A stretch of 64,000 bases of DNA from Maribacter sedimenticola (lineage in GTDB: Bacteria; Bacteroidota; Bacteroidia; Flavobacteriales; Flavobacteriaceae), in assembly GCF_900188415.1 (NCBI RefSeq), contig NZ_FZNV01000003.1, positions 558,001-622,000 of the forward strand, read 5' to 3'. The first letter of the stretch is position 1, and every line of letters begins with the position of its first letter. A program made the translations under genes and the position numbers. The notes below the pieces were generated by a model. That model searched no databases. It was given only the letters and a program-made list of their open reading frames with translations, and had not been told where the DNA came from. This document shows, piece after piece, positions 403 to 24,261 of this stretch.

Positions 403-1395
403 ATGGCAAAAAACCCACATTATTTTTCGCAAATGGCCCATGTTGAGGTCTTAACCAAGGACCTTGAAAAATCGGTACATTTTTTTGGTGATATTGTTGG
501 AATGGATATTACAGGAAGAGAAGAAGGTTCTGTTTATTTAAGAGCTTGGGGAGATTATTTTCATCATACCTTAAAATTGACACAAAGCGACAAGTCTGGA
601 CTTGGACATATTGGGTGGAGAGCGGATAGCCCAGAGGCTTTAGAAGAAGCCGTTGAATATTTGGAAAGTATTGGTGCCGGTAGAGGTTGGTATGATGGTG
701 ACCAAGGCCATGGTAAAGCTTTTAAATTTCAATCTCCTGAAGGTCATATGCATGAAGTTTTTTGGGATGTGCAATGGCTTCGCGAAGAAGGGGAACGTGG
801 TAGCGTGTATGCAGACCGTTATTCCAGCAACCGACTACAAGGGGCAAATCCAAGAAGATTTGACCACGTAACATATATGGTATCTAAAGGCGCTTACCCT
901 GCTGAAAAAGCATTTTGGAAAGCTTTAGGGTTTAAAAATCCGGATGAGATTCGTATTTCAGATGAAATACCTCCAATTGGAGGTTTACATACCCTTGCGA
1001 ACCTATCTCATGACATAGCCATATTTACAGACCCGAATATAGAACCTAACCAAGCAGTTTTAAACCATATTTGCTGGAACGTTGACAGCCGTGAAGAAGT
1101 ACTTTTAGCTTTGGACTATTTCATAGAAAAGGGTTACAAAAGTGTTATGGGGGCACCAACAAGACACAAAGCAGATGAAGGTTTCTTTATCTACATTGTT
1201 GACCCAGGAAGTGGAATCTTATTTGAATACTATGCTTGTGCAAGATTAGTTTTTGCACCAGATCATTTAGACGTTCATTATTTAAAAGATAATCCAAATG
1301 ATGCATGGGGTTCTGTAAATCCGTTTGCAGAAATGGCAAAAGGTAAAAAACTTGGACTATCTGATGATGGTACAGTGAAACCTGTAGATATTTAA
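403..1395 (+). CDS. Extradiol ring-cleavage dioxygenase (VOC superfamily)
   Basis: This 330-residue protein has two tandem VOC/glyoxalase-fold modules, about residues 10-130 and 150-290, as in type I extradiol dioxygenases of the BphC/catechol 2,3-dioxygenase group. The catalytic Fe(II) triad is visible as His155 (in RRFDHV), His222 (in NHICWN) and Glu275 (in GILFEYY), all in the C-terminal module. Such enzymes open a catechol ring next to the two hydroxyls using O2. No signal peptide is seen, so it is cytosolic. It is first in a tight operon with a C-C hydrolase, a flavin monooxygenase and a FAH-family hydrolase, which supports a meta-cleavage role. The substrate cannot be read from the sequence. 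Confidence 0.85.
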   Translation: MAKNPHYFSQMAHVEVLTKDLEKSVHFFGDIVGMDITGREEGSVYLRAWGDYFHHTLKLTQSDKSGLGHIGWRADSPEALEEAVEYLESIGAGRGWYDGDQGHGKAFKFQSPEGHMHEVFWDVQWLREEGERGSVYADRYSSNRLQGANPRRFDHVTYMVSKGAYPAEKAFWKALGFKNPDEIRISDEIPPIGGLHTLANLSHDIAIFTDPNIEPNQAVLNHICWNVDSREEVLLALDYFIEKGYKSVMGAPTRHKADEGFFIYIVDPGSGILFEYYACARLVFAPDHLDVHYLKDNPNDAWGSVNPFAEMAKGKKLGLSDDGTVKPVDI

Positions 1396-1443
1396 GCTAC
1401 TTTATTTAAGTAGAGATAACAATTTTTAAAACACACACGTATT

Positions 1444-2559
1444 ATGTGGCATTTTTTTCCAGGCAAATACATGCCTTCTTATCAAGTTAATAGAGCATTG
1501 ACCCAAGCACATTATGGTGGTGGCGAGTTTGCAGAAATATTAGAAGCAGCGGGTAATATTGACCCAGATAATAGAGAAACCTTTAATATAGCTTGGCTAA
1601 ATAAAGGAAATGAGGTTTATGGTTGGGCAGAAGATTATGAAAACAAAAATGCTTTTGTATCTGCTAGAAGAACCTATTTAAGAGCATTCAATTATTTACG
1701 CACGGCGGAATTTTTCATGAATCTACAAGATGATCGAAAAATACCAACTTACCTTAAAGCAAGAGAGGCTTTTATAAAGGCGACCAAATATTTTGAAGAA
1801 AAACCAATTCAGGTAGAAGTTCCTTTTGAAGGTTCCTTTTTACCGGGATATCTATTTAAGCCAAAAGGCGTGAAAAATCCACCAGTAATGGTGATGTTTG
1901 GCGGATTGGATAGTTTGGCCGAAGAACTTTATTTTGGAATTGGTGACCACTTAATGGAAAGGGGTGTTGCCTTGTTAGCTATGGACGGTCCAGGCCAAGG
2001 AGCCGCTTTACGGTTAAACCATATTCACTCTAGACATGATTATAATGTTGCTGGTACCGCAGTTTTGGATTGGGTTTTAGAAAACCTGAAAGATGAAGTT
2101 GATACCACTAGCGTAGGTATTGCAGGGGTATCCATGGGAGGATACATGGCCGCACGTTGTGCAGCTTTTGAACCTCGTTTTAAAGTATGCATGATATTTG
2201 GAGCTGTTTGGTCTTACTATTCCGTTTGGGCCGGTAGAAGTGGTAAACATCCTTTAGCAGAAATCGTTCAACATATTATGGGTGTTGATAGTTATGAAGA
2301 TGTTCTTAAAAAATTGGAAGGATATACCTTGGAGAACGGCGTAGCCGAAAAAATATCTATACCAACATTTATAATGCATGGCGGTGGTGATAAACAGAAT
2401 TTTGTGGAGCATGCAATTACATTAGAAAAACATTTAACATGCGAACACAAAATGAAAATCGTACCTGAAGGAGAAAGTGGTTCTCAACATTGTCAAGTAG
2501 ATAATTTTATGCCTGCTCTAGACATGTTCGATTGGATTGCAGAGAAAATTCACGCCTAA
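1444..2559 (+). CDS. Alpha/beta hydrolase, C-C bond hydrolase of the DHPON hydrolase/FrsA-like type
   Basis: The 371-residue protein has a helical N-terminal part (about 1-125) followed by an alpha/beta hydrolase core. The nucleophile elbow GVSMGG places Ser230, the acid is probably Asp316 (GGGDKQ) and the base His349 (GSQHC). An N-terminal helical cap with this core resembles 2,6-dihydroxypseudooxynicotine hydrolase and the FrsA/DUF1100 group, which cleave C-C bonds beside aromatic rings. Following an extradiol dioxygenase, it most likely hydrolyses the ring-opened dienoate. The gene starts 48 bases after the dioxygenase stop. The assignment to C-C hydrolysis rests on context; an esterase role is possible. 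Confidence 0.75.
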   Translation: MWHFFPGKYMPSYQVNRALTQAHYGGGEFAEILEAAGNIDPDNRETFNIAWLNKGNEVYGWAEDYENKNAFVSARRTYLRAFNYLRTAEFFMNLQDDRKIPTYLKAREAFIKATKYFEEKPIQVEVPFEGSFLPGYLFKPKGVKNPPVMVMFGGLDSLAEELYFGIGDHLMERGVALLAMDGPGQGAALRLNHIHSRHDYNVAGTAVLDWVLENLKDEVDTTSVGIAGVSMGGYMAARCAAFEPRFKVCMIFGAVWSYYSVWAGRSGKHPLAEIVQHIMGVDSYEDVLKKLEGYTLENGVAEKISIPTFIMHGGGDKQNFVEHAITLEKHLTCEHKMKIVPEGESGSQHCQVDNFMPALDMFDWIAEKIHA

Positions 2560-2593
2560 CGTTCATTTTTGTTTAATTCATAAAATTCACAAT

Positions 2594-3733
2594 ATGTCAG
2601 CAGTTAAAAAGGTACTTGTAGTTGGTGGAGGAATAGGAGGTCAATCTGTAGCGATAGCATTGGCAAAAAAAGGTGTAGAGGTTGAAATTGCAGAACGCTT
2701 GGATGCATTTAATGTATATGGAGTTGGTATTATCCAACAATCTAATGCCCTTAGAGCATTAGATAGAATTGGTCTTGCTGATAAGACCATGGAAGAAGGC
2801 TACCCATACGGACAGTTGAAAATGTTCACTGCAGGTGGGCATTTTTTAGGACTTGCCGGTGCACCTCCTGTAGAGAAATATCCTAGCCATAATGGTATTT
2901 CTCGTAGAACACTTCATGAAATCATGTATGAAGAGGCCATAAAAATCGGAGTGATTTACAAAATGGGAACTACAGTTACAAAAATAGATAACAATGAAAA
3001 TGATGTAACGGTAACCTTTACAGACAATACCCAAGGTACCTATGATATTTTAATAGCATCGGATGGAATAAACTCTGATATGCGTGCTTTAATTTTTGGT
3101 GAATTTAAACCTCGTTATATGGGTGTTTCGGTTTGGAGATATGCGTTTAAAAAGCATGAGGACTTAGATACTGCTTATATGTATTATGGTAAGCGAAGTA
3201 AAATCGGTTTTATTCCAATGTGTGATGAAACAATGTATATGTTCTTGGTATCGGCAGAAGGTGCCGACAATCCTTGGATAGAAAAATCGGCCTATATACC
3301 TATGTTGAAAGATTATTTAGCTGAGTTCCCGGTTAAAATTGCCCAAGATGCAAGAGAACAGATTACAGATCCAAACCTGGTAAATTATCGCCCAATCGAA
3401 GCAAGCCACTTACCAGACCCTTGGTTTAAAAATAGGGCGATTGTTATAGGCGATGGTGCACATGCAACTGTACCACAACTAGGTTCAGGTGCCGCTTTGG
3501 CTCTTGAAGATGGGGTTGTTTTAGCAGAAGAATTAGAAAAAGCTTCTACAGTTGACGAAGCTTTTAGAGCCTTTATGAAAAGACGGTACGACCGTTGTAT
3601 GGCCATTGTAAATGCTTCTGAGACATTGGCCAAATGGGAGCTAATGGAATTTGAAGGAAAACCGTTACCAGAAGGAGCTAATTTAGGTAAAGTAATAGGC
3701 CAAGCAGTAGGTACTTTAATGGCTCCATTTTAA
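2594..3733 (+). CDS. FAD-dependent aromatic monooxygenase
   Basis: From ATG 2594 the product is 379 residues and begins directly at the Rossmann strand with GGGIGG (about residues 9-14). This start is preferred over an in-frame ATG at 2537 that would overlap the hydrolase gene and add a non-conserved leader. The second FAD motif, GDGAHATVPQLGSG, lies near residue 285 and is typical of class A flavoprotein hydroxylases such as salicylate or 4-hydroxybenzoate hydroxylase. It probably hydroxylates an aromatic ring with NAD(P)H and O2 to give the catechol cleaved by the dioxygenase two genes upstream. The C-terminal region (LMAPF) is short, with no extra domain. Confidence 0.85.
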   Translation: MSAVKKVLVVGGGIGGQSVAIALAKKGVEVEIAERLDAFNVYGVGIIQQSNALRALDRIGLADKTMEEGYPYGQLKMFTAGGHFLGLAGAPPVEKYPSHNGISRRTLHEIMYEEAIKIGVIYKMGTTVTKIDNNENDVTVTFTDNTQGTYDILIASDGINSDMRALIFGEFKPRYMGVSVWRYAFKKHEDLDTAYMYYGKRSKIGFIPMCDETMYMFLVSAEGADNPWIEKSAYIPMLKDYLAEFPVKIAQDAREQITDPNLVNYRPIEASHLPDPWFKNRAIVIGDGAHATVPQLGSGAALALEDGVVLAEELEKASTVDEAFRAFMKRRYDRCMAIVNASETLAKWELMEFEGKPLPEGANLGKVIGQAVGTLMAPF

Positions 3734-17980: not shown

Positions 17981-18622
17981 CTATATGAGCCCCCAATCCA
18001 CAGCTTTTCTGACCATTCCTACAGAATTCTTCACCTCCATTTTAACAAAAAGATTTCTTTTGTGCGTTGCTACTGTATTGGTGCTTACAAATAACGCATC
18101 TGCAATCTCTTGAGTGGTATATTCTTGTGCTATAAGTTTTATGACCTCAATTTCCCGCTTGGTAATCTTAGGGATTGTTCCTTCTTTGACCTTAGGGTTT
18201 TCTACAAGGCTTTCAATCATCTTTTCTGTCAAATGAGAGCTTATGACCTTTTTGCCTTCATGGGCATCCTTGATACCCTGTATTAAATATTTTTTTGAAG
18301 TATTCTTCAGCAAATACCCTATAGCACCAACCTTGAATAGCGAAGTTATAATACTGCCTTCATCGTTTGTAGTAAGCATGATGATTTTTACGTTTGGAAA
18401 GGATTTTTTAACATGCATGGTAGTTTCCAATCCATCCATAATGGGCATTTGAAGATCCAACAATAATACGTCCACTGTTTCCGTTTTAAGGAATTCCAAT
18501 ACTTCAAGGCCGTTACAGGCAGTGCCAATTACGTTTAAGGACCTGTCTTTGGTCAAAATTGCCTTTAAACCGTCTAACAATATCTGATGATCATCCGCTA
18601 TCAGTACCTTTATCTTTTCCAT
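17981..18622 (-). CDS. NarL/LuxR-family response regulator
   Basis: The 213-residue protein has a receiver domain (about 1-120) with the acidic pair Asp10-Asp11 and phospho-acceptor Asp56 (LLLDLQMP), then a LuxR-type helix-turn-helix (about 148-210) with the signature TTQEIADALFVSTNTVATH. It lies 18 bases downstream of the histidine kinase gene in the same direction, making a standard two-component pair. The DNA target is unknown. The only striking operator-like sequence nearby is the palindrome at 20652-20669 upstream of the kinase. Confidence 0.93.
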   Translation of the reverse strand: MEKIKVLIADDHQILLDGLKAILTKDRSLNVIGTACNGLEVLEFLKTETVDVLLLDLQMPIMDGLETTMHVKKSFPNVKIIMLTTNDEGSIITSLFKVGAIGYLLKNTSKKYLIQGIKDAHEGKKVISSHLTEKMIESLVENPKVKEGTIPKITKREIEVIKLIAQEYTTQEIADALFVSTNTVATHKRNLFVKMEVKNSVGMVRKAVDWGLI

Positions 18623-18640: not shown

Positions 18641-20512
18641 CTAGGTTTTGTGTTTATTGTCCAGTGGAATGTTTATGGTTACCAAAGTTCCTACACCGGG
18701 ACGACTATTAAGATCAAAAGTTCCCCCAATGAAATCGGTTCTAAATGCAATACTTTTTAACCCCATTCCTTTCCCTGTCTCTATAGCCTCTGGTTCAAAA
18801 CCTTTTCCATCATCTTCTATCGTAAGGTCGAACCATTCTTCGCTGTATGTGATCTGTACCAGAACTTCCTTCGCTTGGGCATATTTGACGATGTTATTCA
18901 AGCCTTCTTGAACAATTCTGAATAACATAATATTGGTATTGTTATCAAATATTTTTTCAGTTCCGTGAACATGAAATTGGGCATCGAAATCATGTACCGC
19001 ATCCATTTTTAGTACTAGGTCATCTAGAGCTTTCCTAAGTCCTAATTTTTTTAAGGACTGAGGCATCATTTCATGGGCAATCTTTCTTACTTCGGTACAG
19101 GCCTCATCAATCATCTGGCTAGCGGTTCCGTAGATTTTTTTAGAATTATTGTCATCAAAATTAATCTGTAAACTGCCTATATTCACTTTCAAACTAGAAA
19201 GTAAGTTTCCTAAACCGTCATGCAAATCTCTAGCAATTCTTGTGCGCTCCTTTTCCTGTCCTTCTAGCATCGAACGCATCGATATAATTTGTTGCTCCCT
19301 ATTGGCTTCATTAAGTTCAAGTTGCCCTGCCTTTACCCGGTTTTGGTAATAAAGTAGAGCTATTAAAGAAACCAGAAGCAATCCTCCTAGGGAAAATAGT
19401 AATGTAGTCATACGATCTTGACTTTTTTGATTTATCACCTCTTCTTCTAAGAGCTGAATTTTTAATTGATCTTTTTCAAACTTAACCTTCATATCGGCCA
19501 TCGCCTCCAAACTACTTTCACTGAGTTTGTATTCTTCTTGTATTTTTTTCTGTTGCTCCAGCAATTGATAAGCGGTTTTATAATCTTTGTTCAATACGTA
19601 GAGCTGTCGTTTAACGTCCATTATGCTGTTTTGAAAACCGATTCTTTCAGCAACTCCATTGAACTGCTCTGCAATTTCAATAAGGTGCCTTGCACTTTTA
19701 AACCCGTGGCCTTGAATTAATTCTGATATCGAGGTGGTATCTATGTTTTGTTCTGCTGCTGCATAAATCATGGAGGCTATGCTGAGCATAGATTCAACTA
19801 CCCCTATATTATTAGCTTCGTTTCTGTGGTCGTACCCTTGGAGGTAATTTTTAGTGGCCAAATCCAAATCCCCGTTTATTCTATGGCATTCCCCCATGCC
19901 TTGATAGAGTCGGGCAATATCAATATGTGATATCGGTTGCTCTTTTAATCTAAATTTCAAAGCCTTTTCATACTTATTGAGTGCTCCTTTAGTATTTCCG
20001 CTAGTATATTCTGCAATAGCCCAGTTGTTGAGCACACCAGCTTGACGTTCAGCATCGGGTATTTTTAAGAAGTAATCAAAGGCCTGTTGATAGGAGAGCA
20101 GGGCTTCATTTAGTGAGCCGTACTCCGTAAGGAATACGGCCTTGGTGTCAGACACATTCCCCAAGCCATAGTAATCTTCTATCACTGAGAACTTGGCCGC
20201 AGCACTATCTAAATATGCAGTTTTCTTATCCATCTGATCAAAACCAAGGCACCAGGCCAATCTATGAAATGATTTACCGATTAGCCTTGGATTTTTAGTG
20301 ATTTTCGAAAGCTTCAAGGCCTTATTGGCGTACAACTCAGACTCTTCTCCGGCATATAGGAGGTAAGCAATCCTCAGATATGCCTCACATTTTACTGAAT
20401 CCTCAGGCATTGATTTTACCACGATTCGTAAACTATCTAATTCTTTTGATTGCCCGTTCATCAAATTGAAACCAATTATAAATAAAATAATGAATAGCCG
20501 TTTTGCCAGCAT
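18641..20512 (-). CDS. TPR-containing sensor histidine kinase (HisKA_3/NarX type)
   Basis: The 623-residue protein has a signal peptide (about 1-20), a periplasmic TPR array (about 25-330), a coiled linker, one transmembrane helix (about 373-395, LLFSLGGLLLVSLIALLYY), a HisKA_3 dimerisation helix with His431 (RIARDLHDGLGN) and a HATPase_c domain (about 525-620; N box IVQEGLNNIVKYAQA, then DDGKGFEPE and GMGLKSI). It phosphorylates the adjacent NarL-type regulator. The TPR sensor has no recognisable ligand site, so the signal is unknown. It is transcribed away from the cyclase gene. Confidence 0.92.
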   Translation of the reverse strand: MLAKRLFIILFIIGFNLMNGQSKELDSLRIVVKSMPEDSVKCEAYLRIAYLLYAGEESELYANKALKLSKITKNPRLIGKSFHRLAWCLGFDQMDKKTAYLDSAAAKFSVIEDYYGLGNVSDTKAVFLTEYGSLNEALLSYQQAFDYFLKIPDAERQAGVLNNWAIAEYTSGNTKGALNKYEKALKFRLKEQPISHIDIARLYQGMGECHRINGDLDLATKNYLQGYDHRNEANNIGVVESMLSIASMIYAAAEQNIDTTSISELIQGHGFKSARHLIEIAEQFNGVAERIGFQNSIMDVKRQLYVLNKDYKTAYQLLEQQKKIQEEYKLSESSLEAMADMKVKFEKDQLKIQLLEEEVINQKSQDRMTTLLFSLGGLLLVSLIALLYYQNRVKAGQLELNEANREQQIISMRSMLEGQEKERTRIARDLHDGLGNLLSSLKVNIGSLQINFDDNNSKKIYGTASQMIDEACTEVRKIAHEMMPQSLKKLGLRKALDDLVLKMDAVHDFDAQFHVHGTEKIFDNNTNIMLFRIVQEGLNNIVKYAQAKEVLVQITYSEEWFDLTIEDDGKGFEPEAIETGKGMGLKSIAFRTDFIGGTFDLNSRPGVGTLVTINIPLDNKHKT

Positions 20513-20651
20513 GCTAATAACTTTTACAGTAATAAATCAATCCACCATAGATTTTGATAGCCTTTTGTGTTTTGAGTGGAATTTAAATTTGATATGGTCA
20601 AAGTTATCGAATTCTAGGCCCCATACAACATCTAAAACAATGATTATCAGT

Positions 20652-20669
20652 ATCACACAATTGTGTGAT
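20652..20669. promoter_or_regulatory. 18-bp perfect palindrome, candidate operator
   Basis: ATCACACAATTGTGTGAT is a perfect inverted repeat between the divergent kinase and cyclase genes. The half-sites recall CRP/FNR-superfamily operators but with the arms in reverse order (TCACA...TGTGA). It lies 71 bases upstream of the -7 box of the cyclase gene. The cognate regulator is not known. Confidence 0.5.
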
Positions 20670-20739
20670 GTCTCCTTAAAGAGAAGTATGATTTTTTAAA
20701 ATCACAGAATAGGGTGTAAAAAAAACGAAGGTCCAAATC

Positions 20740-20747
20740 TAACTTTG
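20740..20747 (+). promoter_or_regulatory. -7 box before the ferredoxin-cyclase-globin gene
   Basis: TAACTTTG matches TAnnTTTG exactly. Transcription would begin around 20754, which supports translation from ATG 20797 and argues against an upstream in-frame GTG at 20752. No clear TTG -33 element is seen. Confidence 0.5.
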
Positions 20748-20796: not shown

Positions 20797-22116
20797 ATGG
20801 TTAACAAGATAACATATTCAGCAATTAACAGGCAGGTAGACTTCGAATCCAATGCCAATACACTTTTGGATATATCAATCAAGAATGGAATTCCTCACTT
20901 ACATGAATGCGGAGGGAATGGCATCTGTACTACCTGTAGGGTTAGGGTAATGGACGGGATAAATAATTTAAGTCCTAAAACAGAATTCGAAAATGCAAGT
21001 TGCCAAGTCAGAAAGTGGGATCCATCTATTCGTTTGGCATGTCAGGCACGTCCTAAAGGAAATGTTACGCTACAACGTTTAATATGGTCTAGTGGGGAAA
21101 TTAACAATCTACAAAAAGAATTAGTCCCTAGAGGACGTGCAGAAGAAAAACCAATTGCCATTCTTTTCTGTGACCTTAGAAATTTTACGAACCTTTCTTC
21201 CCATAATCTCAACTTTGATATTGCGTATATGCTCAACAAATTTTATACGGCATTAGGAGAGCCAATTTTGATGAACAATGGTGTTATTTATCAATATGTA
21301 GGGGATGAGATAGTGGGTGTATTTGGTACCACGGGAGGCACCGCCCAAAAAAATTGCGAAGATGCGATTCGGGCGGCACTAGGTATGCAGTATTCACTTG
21401 AATCACTTAACAGATCTGATCTTAAAGATATCGACATTAAACTAAAATCGGGAATAGGCATCAACTTTGGCTCCGCTTTTTTAGGTCATCTAGGACATCC
21501 TACACATAAACAGTTTTCTGTCATTGGTGACCCTGTTAATGTGGCGAGTAGAATCCAGAACGAAACCAAGGCAACGGATACCGATATTCTAATATCAGAT
21601 ACGGTTTTGAAAAATGTTGATAAAGATTCGATAGTCATTGGACGCAAATTCTGCAACAAAGTAGCAGGTAAGGAAGATGCTTTGAATTTATTTGAACTAA
21701 AAGGGTTCAAAGCCATGGATCTTCAATTAGAATTGCAAGCTTCAATGAATTTAATGCTTGAGGACGAGGTGGGGTTCGCAAAAATCTTCTATGATAAGGT
21801 GTTCAAGTTAGCTCCTTTTGTGCGGGCCCTATTTCGTAAAAACATGACAGACCAAGGGAGGTTGCTTACACATATGCTCGGAGGCATCGTTTATTCGCTT
21901 TCTAGACCAGAACATTTAATGAAAGGATTGGCTAAACTCGGTCAGAGCCATGTCAATTATGGCGTAAAGGCGGAATACTACCCTATTGTCAAACAAGCAA
22001 TGCTTGAAACTATTAATGAAGTTTTGGGAGATAATAAAACTAATCGAACAATTGAAGCTTGGAATGAAGCGCTGAATTTTGTGATAGATACTATGAAAAC
22101 ACATGCACATTCATAA
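20797..22116 (+). CDS. [2Fe-2S] ferredoxin - class III nucleotide cyclase - globin fusion
   Basis: From ATG 20797 the product has 439 residues in three modules. Residues 1-105 are a plant-type ferredoxin with Cys38, Cys44, Cys47 (C-x5-C-x2-C) and Cys82. Residues about 115-310 are a class III adenylate/guanylate cyclase with metal aspartates Asp126 (FCDLRNFT) and Asp170 (YVGDE) and the VIGDPVNVASR motif. The usual adenine-selecting Lys before xxGD is Gln here, so the nucleotide made is uncertain. Residues about 320-439 are a flavohaemoglobin-like globin: Tyr332 (B10), Phe346 (CD1), Gln353 (E7) and proximal His385 (F8), with B10-CD1 and E7-F8 spacings equal to flavohaemoglobin. There is no membrane segment. 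It is probably a redox- and gas-sensing cyclase. Confidence 0.85.
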   Translation: MVNKITYSAINRQVDFESNANTLLDISIKNGIPHLHECGGNGICTTCRVRVMDGINNLSPKTEFENASCQVRKWDPSIRLACQARPKGNVTLQRLIWSSGEINNLQKELVPRGRAEEKPIAILFCDLRNFTNLSSHNLNFDIAYMLNKFYTALGEPILMNNGVIYQYVGDEIVGVFGTTGGTAQKNCEDAIRAALGMQYSLESLNRSDLKDIDIKLKSGIGINFGSAFLGHLGHPTHKQFSVIGDPVNVASRIQNETKATDTDILISDTVLKNVDKDSIVIGRKFCNKVAGKEDALNLFELKGFKAMDLQLELQASMNLMLEDEVGFAKIFYDKVFKLAPFVRALFRKNMTDQGRLLTHMLGGIVYSLSRPEHLMKGLAKLGQSHVNYGVKAEYYPIVKQAMLETINEVLGDNKTNRTIEAWNEALNFVIDTMKTHAHS

Positions 22117-22198: not shown

Positions 22199-23596
22199 AT
22201 GTCAACAAAAGTTAAAGTAAAGGAGTTGGAAGATTCGATTTTGGAAGCCTTTAAAACGCAGATCAGAGGGGAAGTTATATTCCCAAATGATGATACATAC
22301 GACGAGACGCGAAAAATTTACAATGCCATGATCGATAAGCGACCGGGAATGTTCGTAATGTGTACGAATGCCGCGGATGTTATCTACGCGGTAAATTTTG
22401 GAAGGGAGAACAACCTTTTAATTGCCGTCAGGGGAGGCGGTCATAATGGTGGTGGCCTAGGTCTTTGTGATGATGGAATGGTCATAGATTTATCTGGCAT
22501 AAAATTCGTACATGTAGATGTAGAGAATAGCACAGTTAGAGTAGGCGGAGGAAATTTATGGGGAGAAGTAGATCATGCAACCCATCCGTTTGGACTTGCT
22601 GTTCCAGCTGGTATCATTTCCACCACTGGAGTTGGAGGTCTCACCTTGGGCGGTGGTGTAGGATATCTTTCGAGAATGTACGGCCTTACTATTGACAATT
22701 TACTTGAAGCAGACATGATATTGGCAGATGGTTCATTTGTGACCGTAAACGCTAAACAGAATACAGATTTGTTTTGGGCTATTCGCGGAGGGGGTGGTAA
22801 TTTTGGTATAGTTACTTCCTTTAAATTTCAAGCTCATCCTGTAAAAAATATTATTGGAGGGCCTTCGTTATGGCCTATTGAAAAAATAGATGAAGTGATG
22901 GAATGGTATCATAAATTCTTAAACGATGCCCCGGATGAGCTGAACGGATTTATTGCAACAATGGTCATTCCAGGGGCTCCTTTTCCGGAGGAGCTACACA
23001 ACAAAATGTTCTGTGGTATTGTTTGGTCATATCTTGGTGAACCTGAGAAACTGGAAGAAGTTTTTAAACCCGTCCTTGACATGAATCCGGTCTTTTACCA
23101 TGTCGGCGAAATGCCGTACCCTTCCATTCAGACCTTGTTCGACGGGATGCTTCCCCCTGGCTTACAATGGTATTGGAGAGCCGACTATTTCAATGACCTA
23201 GGTCCGGAAGTTAGAGCCAAGCATTTGGAATTTGGATCCAAAATTCCCACGCCTCTTTCACAAATGCACTTATACCCTATCAGTGGAGCGGCTAGCAGGG
23301 TCGGAAAGGAAGAAACTCCTTGGGCCAATAGGGATGCTAAATATGCTGGTGTAATCGTAGGGGTCGACCCTGACCCAAAAAATGCGAATAAGATTACAAA
23401 TTGGTGCAAGGAGTATTGGGAAGCACTACATCCCTATTCGACAGGGGGAGCTTATTTGAACTTCATTATGGACGAGGGTCAAGAGCGAATAAAAGCGAGT
23501 TATAAACAAAATTATGAGCGCTTGGTCCAAATAAAAAAGAAGTATGATCCTAAAAATCTGTTTAGAGTTAATCAAAATATTAAACCAAAAGATTAG
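22199..23596 (+). CDS. FAD-linked oxidase of the berberine-bridge enzyme family
   Basis: The 465-residue protein has a PCMH-type FAD-binding domain (about 40-215) with RGGGHNGGG, whose His is the usual 8-alpha-histidyl flavin anchor, and GGGVGYLSRMYGLTIDN. The second anchoring Cys found in bicovalent members is absent at that place (LSR), so flavin would be held by His only. The C-terminal BBE element (LFRVNQNI) is present. No signal peptide is seen, so it is cytosolic. It follows the cyclase gene after 82 bases in the same direction and may be cotranscribed. Substrates of such oxidases range from sugars to alkaloids; none can be named here. Confidence 0.88.
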   Translation: MSTKVKVKELEDSILEAFKTQIRGEVIFPNDDTYDETRKIYNAMIDKRPGMFVMCTNAADVIYAVNFGRENNLLIAVRGGGHNGGGLGLCDDGMVIDLSGIKFVHVDVENSTVRVGGGNLWGEVDHATHPFGLAVPAGIISTTGVGGLTLGGGVGYLSRMYGLTIDNLLEADMILADGSFVTVNAKQNTDLFWAIRGGGGNFGIVTSFKFQAHPVKNIIGGPSLWPIEKIDEVMEWYHKFLNDAPDELNGFIATMVIPGAPFPEELHNKMFCGIVWSYLGEPEKLEEVFKPVLDMNPVFYHVGEMPYPSIQTLFDGMLPPGLQWYWRADYFNDLGPEVRAKHLEFGSKIPTPLSQMHLYPISGAASRVGKEETPWANRDAKYAGVIVGVDPDPKNANKITNWCKEYWEALHPYSTGGAYLNFIMDEGQERIKASYKQNYERLVQIKKKYDPKNLFRVNQNIKPKD

Positions 23597-23758
23597 GAAT
23601 ATAAATTTATGATTTATTGGAAATTATTAATAGAGGAAAATGATACTATTCTGGAACCGACCTAATAACCAGTTTTATATCCTGCTGGGCTAGCTGAAAG
23701 GTTAGAAATTATTGGTTCTACCTAAATTTCGGGATGATATTACCCATCTAATAAACAG

Positions 23759-23786
23759 AGGCCTTCATGAAAACGGAGGCTTTTTC
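23759..23786 (+). terminator. Probable terminator after the BBE oxidase gene
   Basis: GCCTTC pairs with GGAGGC across a short A-rich loop (one G-U pair), followed by five T residues. It lies 163 bases after the stop codon. Confidence 0.6.
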
Positions 23787-24064
23787 TTATTTACTTGCAC
23801 GATTTGTACACTTTTTAAAATCACTACCTTTCCTTAAAATTTAACCTAAGTAAGCTCCAAATCCATCCAATAAGCTTAAATTATAAATTGCATTTTACGA
23901 GCAACTAGTTTTTTAAAAATACAGAATCACAGGACTATCTTAAATTTATTTATGTAAAAGTCACGTAAAACGAACGTTTTATAAAACTAATTTTCACACT
24001 CATTTGACTTAAATTCAATCTATTTATATCAAATTTTAACTGAAAAAGAAAAAATTTTCAAAAG

Positions 24065-24083
24065 TGTGCACAAAATGTGCATT
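24065..24083 (+). repeat. Right copy of the TGTGCA-type repeat
   Basis: TGTGCACAAAATGTGCATT matches 17374-17392 at 17 of 19 bases. It sits 49 bases before the right tRNA repeat. Together the pair brackets the island interior, as arm-type integrase sites would. Confidence 0.5.
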
Positions 24084-24094
24084 GCGGAAAAACG

Positions 24095-24123
24095 AAAAAG
24101 CCCCCACATTTGTGAAGGCTTTT
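24095..24123 (-). terminator. Terminator of tRNA-Ala
   Basis: AAAAAGCC and GGCTTTT form a stem around a CACA-TTGTG inner hairpin, just downstream of the tRNA on the minus strand. It would have arrived with the island, replacing the original terminator now at 17187-17218. Confidence 0.65.
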
Positions 24124-24133
24124 GTTAACTATG

Positions 24134-24207
24134 TGGAGAATACCGGATTCGAACCGGTGACCTCTTGCCTGCCAGGCAAGCGCTCTAGCCAACTGAGCTA
24201 ATCCCCC
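24134..24207 (-). tRNA. tRNA-Ala(GGC)
   Basis: The 74-base cloverleaf folds fully: acceptor GGGGGAT with ATTCTCC including the G3-U70 pair that marks alanine tRNAs, D arm GCTC/GAGC, anticodon arm CTTGC-CTGGCAG-GCAAG with anticodon GGC, and T arm ACCGG-TTCGAAT-CCGGT. The discriminator is A and CCA is not encoded. Its 3' 42 bases are repeated at 17220-17261, so it is the integration site of the adjacent island. Confidence 0.97.
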
Positions 24208-24261
24208 AATTTTTAGAACGGGTCAAAGGAAATACTTTTTGGCAAAGTATCAAAAAACTAT

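Follow-up and report, generated by a model that had tools for sequence, protein, structure and literature searches.

A conserved ferredoxin-cyclase-globin protein of Maribacter sedimenticola as a candidate sensor of redox state and gases

A 64,000-nucleotide stretch of the genome of Maribacter sedimenticola (contig NZ_FZNV01000003.1, positions 558,001 to 622,000 of the forward strand; the window, at its full length) carries a gene for a 439-residue protein that joins a [2Fe-2S] ferredoxin domain (Fer2), a class III nucleotide cyclase and a globin in one chain. This is a real and conserved architecture, assembled from known parts, of which we found no earlier description. We favour, with moderate confidence, the reading that the protein is a sensor enzyme of three known domains, whose cyclase would be set by the redox state of an iron-sulfur (Fe-S) cluster and by the ligand of a haem. 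To our knowledge, the inputs of class III cyclases are mostly unknown; matches to these enzymes are frequent in the phylum of the window, and here the likely inputs (2Fe-2S redox state, and O2 or nitric oxide (NO) at the haem) would sit on the cyclase's own chain.

One gene, three domains and a family of relatives

The open reading frame (ORF) runs from an ATG at 20797 to a stop codon ending at 22116, just where a first, sequence-only reading of this DNA had placed a single 439-residue chain; the ORF lister begins the frame at an upstream GTG (20752), but this is unlikely to be the true start, because the alignments of relatives begin at about the ATG. That reading had claimed three joined domains, and Pfam recovers all of them above their gathering scores: Fer2 at residues 11-87 (E 9.3e-10), Guanylate_cyc at 118-292 (1.1e-15) and Globin at 331-433 (8.8e-13). 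Sequence matches in the PDB along the chain are ferredoxin and putidaredoxin at the front, cyclases in the middle, and HGbRL, HGbI, thermoglobin and flavohaemoproteins at the end. Between the window protein and seven relatives the nonsynonymous divergence (dN) is low in all three domains (0.06-0.23), and the synonymous divergence (dS), computable in 7 of 21 comparisons, is 1.4-2.5 there and saturated in the other 14.

Genomes were sampled from the phylum of the window (395), from its family (397) and from the phylum of a Variovorax carrier (398). Some match to the window protein occurs in 297 of the 395 phylum genomes, most of those listed lying over the cyclase part; near-full-length ones, among the matches listed, belong to the source genome, G118 and G340. 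These three proteins were aligned, and a scan of a genome collection built on the alignment, by way of two peptide motifs, gave 61 related loci with nearly full-length matches at 37-85% identity. Sixty of these are intact single frames (the other, L077, has an in-frame stop), which excludes the frameshift or assembly join of two genes that the sequence-only reading had asked to be checked. The 60 intact loci and the window protein form the set of 61 aligned proteins used below, L077 being omitted from alignment, gene clustering and tree. Since all three Pfam families are matched in 61/61, the order Fer2-Guanylate_cyc-globin does mark a family, as had been asked; chance domain matches are likewise excluded by this recurrence, by the Pfam scores and by the globin fold described below.

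The 61 loci are a lower bound inherent in a two-motif scan: a profile search of the 397 family genomes yielded 13 more members, 7 of them with neither motif, and all 13, those 7 included, keep the same cofactor and catalytic residues as the 61-protein set. Three of these profile-found members share a contig with a scan locus (L190/L066, L191/L114, L194/L095), and L006, a row of the alignment from which the scan was built, is on a contig equal in length to that of scan locus L121.

The carriers are mostly Bacteroidota (Maribacter, Muricauda/Allomuricauda, Robiginitalea, Algoriphagus, Echinicola, Christiangramia, and Saprospiraceae and Lewinella bins), joined by Variovorax ginsengisoli, a Polyangia bin and a Rhodothermales bin. 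Presence is patchy: the three-domain protein is encoded in 14 of the 397 family genomes, the source included, and 3 have only the Fer2-cyclase (E <= 1e-60). The protein is not seen in any of 24 further genus genomes, several of which are incomplete; one of these (G417) has a globin-less Fer2-cyclase. Both forms occur together in the Polyangia genome G810 (L134, L135). A contig labelled Thalassovita (Roseobacteraceae; L115) carries a member that is nested among the Bacteroidota sequences in the tree, through either mis-binning or transfer. A viral origin was considered and rejected, no viral contig encoding a relative (82 pattern stretches, none confirmed), and so was a phage or plasmid origin, the phage and plasmid records having partial matches only, none covering 80% of the query.

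Cofactor and catalytic residues of the three domains

Five residues of the predicted haem pocket, Tyr332, Phe346, Gln353, His385 and Tyr395, show no variation in the 61 proteins; we take the first four to be B10, CD1, E7 and F8, labels obtained in part through passages on HGbI. Both scan motifs fall within the Fer2 and cyclase parts, which leaves the conservation of the globin unbiased by the scan. Seventeen of 135 globin positions are invariant, and the chance that all five named residues fall among them is 1.8e-5, assuming equal positions. We infer that the globin binds haem. The contrary reading, that globin or Fer2 holds no cofactor and serves as a scaffold in a plain cyclase, has a known parallel in the haem-less globin sensor RsbR of B. 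subtilis (mentioned in passages of PMC4476040), but it appears very improbable given this figure and the invariance of His385, of the distal residues and of the four Fe-S cysteines in 61/61.

The spacing of the pocket (B10 to CD1 14, CD1 to E7 7, E7 to F8 32) is also identical in 61/61. The sequence-only reading had described a flavohaemoglobin-type globin with these residues at flavohaemoglobin spacing; the residues stand, while the spacing turns out to be that of HGbI. From B10 to E7 the distance is 21, the same as between Tyr29 and Gln50 of HGbI in passages of PMC4476040, and an alignment with the flavohaemoprotein 1cqx needs a three-residue gap. Structure prediction, suggested beforehand as a check for a missing globin fold, returned that fold: the globin-only model, built from an alignment of 50 of the 61 proteins with a predicted local distance difference test score (pLDDT) of 92, has as its best Foldseek match 3s1i, the oxygen-bound Hell's Gate globin I (HGbI), at template modelling (TM) scores of 0.88 by query and 0.91 by target.

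By sequence, the closest solved globins are HGbRL (3wfw) and HGbI (3s1i), with thermoglobin and flavohaemoproteins also among the nearest solved relatives. With the globin fold, His F8, Phe CD1, Tyr B10 and Gln E7, the domain is an F-type globin, a placement made through these closest solved relatives. It is not an N-terminal S-type sensor globin, lying at the C-terminus and matching Pfam Globin in 61/61 proteins and Protoglobin in 1/61, weakly. Neither is the protein a flavohaemoglobin, as the globin forms the C-terminus and the Pfam scan finds no reductase domain for flavin adenine dinucleotide (FAD) or nicotinamide adenine dinucleotide (NAD) behind it. HGbI and HGbRL, both of Methylacidiphilum infernorum, have Tyr B10 and Gln E7 in common and no helix D, like the family described here; HGbRL is a two-domain putative sensor with a Roadblock domain behind its globin, and unlike our family the two have no cyclase or ferredoxin, as far as the passages of PMC4476040 go. 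In a search limited to PF00042, the three-domain protein is the only Pfam Globin match in the source genome. A match to the globin part alone was seen in 3 of the 24 other genus genomes (G413, G415, G416).

In the cyclase, Asp126, Asp170, Gln166 and Asn248 are present in 61/61 aligned proteins and Arg252 in 60/61, with Lys in the remaining one. Asp126 and Asp170 are presumably the metal-binding Asp of class III cyclases, and Asn248 and Arg252 we take to be the transition-state Asn and Arg. Judged by residues and fold, the window protein is a predicted class III nucleotide cyclase, and its product may be cyclic AMP (cAMP), cyclic GMP (cGMP) or another cyclic nucleotide monophosphate (cNMP). Cya2 (2w01) and CyaC (1wc3) share its cyclase fold and catalytic residues; their matched chains are without Fer2 or globin. 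We speak only of a cyclase, and not of an adenylyl cyclase, because the purine-specifying Lys of adenylyl cyclases is replaced by Gln166 throughout the family. This replacement had been read from the sequence alone, and the alignment bears it out, Gln166 facing Lys in 6fht and Glu in the guanylyl cyclase Cya2. Position 241, seven before Asn248 and presumably the second specificity position, is Ser in 31, Ala in 16, Thr in 12, Cys in 1 and Gly in 1 of the 61 proteins.

Across the rows of the tree described below, Gln166 is found in 65/65 with globin vs 1/30 without (there Lys 18, Asp 9). Gln166 and the Glu37-Cys38 stretch lie inside the scan motifs, so the scan itself may have selected for them, most of the 65 rows being motif-found; 13/13 profile-found members, including the seven without either motif, nevertheless keep both Gln166 and that stretch. 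The residue is no proof of a new product, because globin-less cyclases of the same phylum (L003, L004, L009) have Gln at the equivalent position too. As candidate readers of the product, the source genome holds 12 matches to the cNMP-binding domain (PF00027).

The Fe-S cysteines of the Fer2 part keep the [2Fe-2S] ferredoxin spacing C-x5-C-x2-C-x34-C in all 61 aligned proteins, and the four are found in 65/65 rows with and 30/30 without globin; the domain is predicted to carry a [2Fe-2S] cluster. All the cofactor and catalytic residues singled out by the sequence-only reading (Cys38/44/47/82, Asp126, Asp170, Tyr332, Phe346, Gln353, His385) recur in 61/61. Other residues set the globin-bearing proteins apart: Glu37, Arg72 and Trp74 of the Fer2 part (65/65 with globin vs 0/30 without), and Leu105 and Glu108 in the helix that joins Fer2 to the cyclase (65/65 vs 1/30 each).

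AlphaFold2 on the 61-row alignment gave a best whole-chain model with a mean pLDDT of 89 and a predicted TM score (pTM) of 0.88, the five models spanning 81-89. The best 50 Foldseek matches listed for it are all cyclase structures, with CyaC and Cya2 among the first. In this model only four residues separate the last strand of the cyclase (296-304) from the first helix of the globin (309-338).

Origin of the fusion and the proposed sensor enzyme

The tree of the Fer2-cyclase region holds 95 rows, 65 with and 30 without globin; 93 are different, the identical pairs L125/L114 and L127/L095 being kept, and L130, the same gene as L131, was omitted. All globin-bearing rows lie on one side of a branch that has a support of 100/100 and occurs in 100% of 200 bootstrap trees (the root is the midpoint, and the program flags long branches, including L117 and L120). 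The simplest reading of this pattern is that a globin joined once onto a ferredoxin-cyclase. The nearest relatives on the tree are globin-less Fer2-class III cyclases with the same domain order, four Fe-S Cys and metal Asp, which come in forms of about 310 residues and of about 560-620 residues with an N-terminal extension. That ferredoxin-cyclases usually lack a globin had been presumed, and the 398 genomes from the Variovorax carrier's phylum bear this out: 37 have strong matches, 36 of which end at or before the globin start, and only the carrier's spans the globin. In the same phylum, locus L143 has a Fer2-cyclase frame (1051-2370, plus strand) and a separate globin frame (2474-3133, minus strand), convergent and about 100 bp apart; adjacency of separate genes as a rule was rejected on this one case, most such loci having been seen with about 1.5 kb of flank.

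In the sensor enzyme that we favour, the N-terminal [2Fe-2S] ferredoxin would report the redox state, drawing its charge from the electron carriers of the cell, and the C-terminal haem globin, with its HGbI-like pocket, would bind O2 or NO. Changes in ligand or redox state may then move both domains against a cyclase dimer and so set the rate of cyclic nucleotide formation, the shift probably passing through helices 99-109 and 309-338, fixed at the two ends of the cyclase. The product may act on cNMP-binding proteins or, in some relatives, on a membrane protein of the PycTM family encoded next door, which probably reads it. In the window's clade, a divergently encoded histidine kinase and LuxR-type response regulator probably control the amount of cyclase through a palindrome in the shared promoter, and an FAD-linked oxidase gene is next in line in most loci.

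A different use of the same parts is possible, though on the unlikely side: an intramolecular relay in which the ferredoxin reduces the haem, which would make the globin either a sensor of O2 or NO that reduces itself or a small NO dioxygenase, with haem turnover reported by the cyclase. Both redox centres would lie on one chain, the distal pocket and Tyr395 resemble those of flavohaemoglobin and HGbI, no second Pfam Globin match accompanies the protein in its genome, and the globin-specific residues Glu37, Arg72 and Trp74 are in keeping with a relay. On the other hand, clade-specific invariants of this kind may reflect shared ancestry, and Glu37 is inside a scan motif. The H-helix Glu of flavohaemoglobin, which we take to be Glu137 of Hmp, is without a conserved equivalent at residues 434-439 of the 61 aligned proteins, which argues against the proximal triad of an NO dioxygenase. 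Ferredoxin reductases have been proposed as electron donors for some globins, according to passages of the review PMC3820574.

Several points weigh against the sensor enzyme itself. Its clade-specific invariants, too, can be plain shared ancestry, and three of the five whole-chain models have a pLDDT near 81. No neighbour is constant beyond the one clade; even there the oxidase is missing from 4 of 17 kinase-bearing regions (three with a PycTM-type gene instead, and L076), and in the window no PycTM-type gene adjoins the cyclase, so that, as judged by PycTM (PycTIR effectors were not looked for), the gene pair of a Pycsar system is not seen there. A C-terminal globin is an unusual position for a sensor, and globin domains are said, in passages of PMC3820574, to occur in enzymes including guanylate cyclases.

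A functional parallel is HemAC-Lm of Leishmania major, a haem-containing, globin-coupled soluble adenylate cyclase that links O2 to cAMP (PMC4534343). It resembles the present family in coupling a haem globin to a class III cyclase, a likeness drawn by description and not by sequence; it is eukaryotic, and no ferredoxin is mentioned in the passages of that source. S-type globin-coupled sensors also combine a globin with a signalling output, whereas here the globin is C-terminal and nearest to HGbRL, HGbI, thermoglobin and flavohaemoproteins; an F-type globin as C-terminal sensor would depart from the usual N-terminal pattern. The three-domain protein is not described in the passages of PMC4534343, PMC4476040, PMC3820574, PMC554113, PMC8846402 and PMC3287990, and no title or abstract opening among the literature matches listed names it, which is weak evidence of absence as most subscription journals lay outside that search. 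A small protein with two coloured cofactors, as predicted here, would make control by gas and redox state addressable in one spectroscopic and enzymatic experiment.

Neighbouring genes and the divergent promoter

Table 1. Features of the window discussed in the text (residue numbers refer to the three-domain protein).
Feature	Position	Strand	Basis or remark
Response regulator (Response_reg, GerE/LuxR-type)	17981..18622	-	same cluster in 16/61 regions
Histidine kinase (HisKA_3, HATPase_c; TPR_12 just under cut-off)	18641..20512	-	divergent to cyclase; same cluster in 17/61 regions
TAACTTTG toward histidine kinase	20599..20606	-	promoter alignment
Perfect 18-bp palindrome ATCACACAATTGTGTGAT	20652..20669	.	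divergent promoter; putative operator
Second conserved near-palindrome (TGATTTTTTAAAATCA)	20689..20704	.	promoter alignment
TAACTTTG, -7-like element toward cyclase	20740..20747	+	promoter alignment
Fer2-cyclase-globin protein, 439 aa	20797..22116	+	ORF, Pfam; AlphaFold2 best model pLDDT 89, pTM 0.88
[2Fe-2S] Fer2 domain, residues 11-87; Cys38, 44, 47, 82	20827..21057	+	Pfam PF00111; four Cys 61/61
Short helix 99-109 joining Fer2 and cyclase; L105, E108 invariant in globin-bearing members	21091..21123	+	AlphaFold2 model, alignment
Class III cyclase domain, residues 116-304; D126, D170, Gln166, Ser241, N248, R252	21142..21708	+	Pfam PF00211; Foldseek best matches CyaC 1wc3, Cya2 2w01
Globin domain, residues 309-435; Y332 (B10), F346 (CD1), Q353 (E7), H385 (F8), Y395 (G5)	21721..22101	+	Pfam PF00042; globin-only model
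FAD-linked (berberine-bridge-type) oxidase; FAD_binding_4, BBE	22199..23596	+	82 bp downstream of cyclase; same cluster in 14/61 regions

Clustering of the genes around 60 loci and the window (61 regions) defines a layout shared within the window's clade, with kinase and regulator genes divergent from the cyclase gene and the oxidase gene after it on the same strand (Table 1); in L113 the regulator is separate from the kinase. Because members from Flavobacteriaceae and from Algoriphagus (Cyclobacteriaceae) share this gene set despite different outer flanks, we suggest that kinase, regulator, cyclase and oxidase moved as a block. The surroundings differ in the other clades. In L089, L112 and L118 a TetR-type frame stops 3 bp short of the cyclase frame (Pfam was run on one of the three); OsmC, cupin or glyoxalase-type genes also occur (one of each scanned), and a further neighbour family, number 9, has no Pfam match. 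The sequence-only reading had made no mention of the conserved neighbours, that is the kinase, regulator, palindrome and FAD oxidase, and PycTM in some relatives.

The palindrome sits between the TAACTTTG elements directed at kinase and cyclase, which presumably correspond to the -7 element of Bacteroidota. Aligning 17 promoters, from 16 of the 17 kinase-bearing regions and from L073 (on a contig that ends early), shows the 16-bp core TCACACAATTGTGTGA to be exact in 15 and changed in L064 and L069; L076 has an exact core as well, located upstream of an inserted frame. A match with at most three mismatches arose in 5 of 100 shuffled windows. The source genome contains one perfect copy and one with three mismatches. 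The exact palindrome occurs in 3 of the 397 family genomes, each of which encodes this cyclase and has the palindrome about 130 bp upstream of it; the other 11 cyclase carriers of the family have no copy within one mismatch, and two genomes (G524, G665) have a copy with one mismatch and, in the family profile search, no globin-cyclase. The palindrome is probably the operator of the adjacent LuxR-type regulator. Sites of FNR, CRP and NO-regulator type were searched with four exact patterns, which are found in 0/61 upstream regions, the loose TGT-N10-ACA occurring in 4/61.

Frames of 195-245 residues belonging to one cluster lie downstream on the same strand in 5/61 regions, directly behind the cyclase in L067, L070 and L113 and behind the oxidase in L064 and L065. 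The L064 frame matches both the Pfam and the padloc PycTM models, and the other four are grouped with it by sequence. Pycsar systems make cyclic CMP or cyclic UMP and act in phage defence. A Pycsar-like pair is thus conceivable here, with the cyclase product triggering the PycTM membrane effector in phage defence or membrane stress and with Fer2 and globin as stress sensor; we consider it quite improbable, as the window and 55 other regions are without a PycTM-type gene (some of their contigs end early) and the padloc PycC models do not discriminate. Matches to these were dismissed as proof of Pycsar, the globin-less Fer2-cyclase P0003 scoring about equally. Within the genus, moreover, PycTM adjoins a receiver-cyclase whose specificity positions hold Lys and Thr, an arrangement resembling ordinary signalling.

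The source genome itself has four PycTM matches. One PycTM-type gene (L180/L002, contig C11 at about 300-302 kb) adjoins such a receiver-cyclase, of 349 residues, and a PycTM-type frame is also present at 8 of 10 other genus loci with the 349-residue protein (flanks of about 1.5 kb). A link between PycTM and the three-domain protein would be a possible way for these effectors to receive redox and gas signals. It enters a more elaborate picture that we regard as unlikely, in which one chain with an electron path from 2Fe-2S to haem would convert the state of its own centres, both oxidation and bound ligand, into a cyclic-nucleotide signal, the Gln-type specificity may give a product other than cAMP, and in one clade the set would have a dedicated PycTM effector and travel with its own two-component regulator and operator.

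Behind the FAD oxidase, some 665 bases (window 23597-24261) contain no ORF of at least 80 residues and separate it from a universal stress protein encoded on the minus strand.
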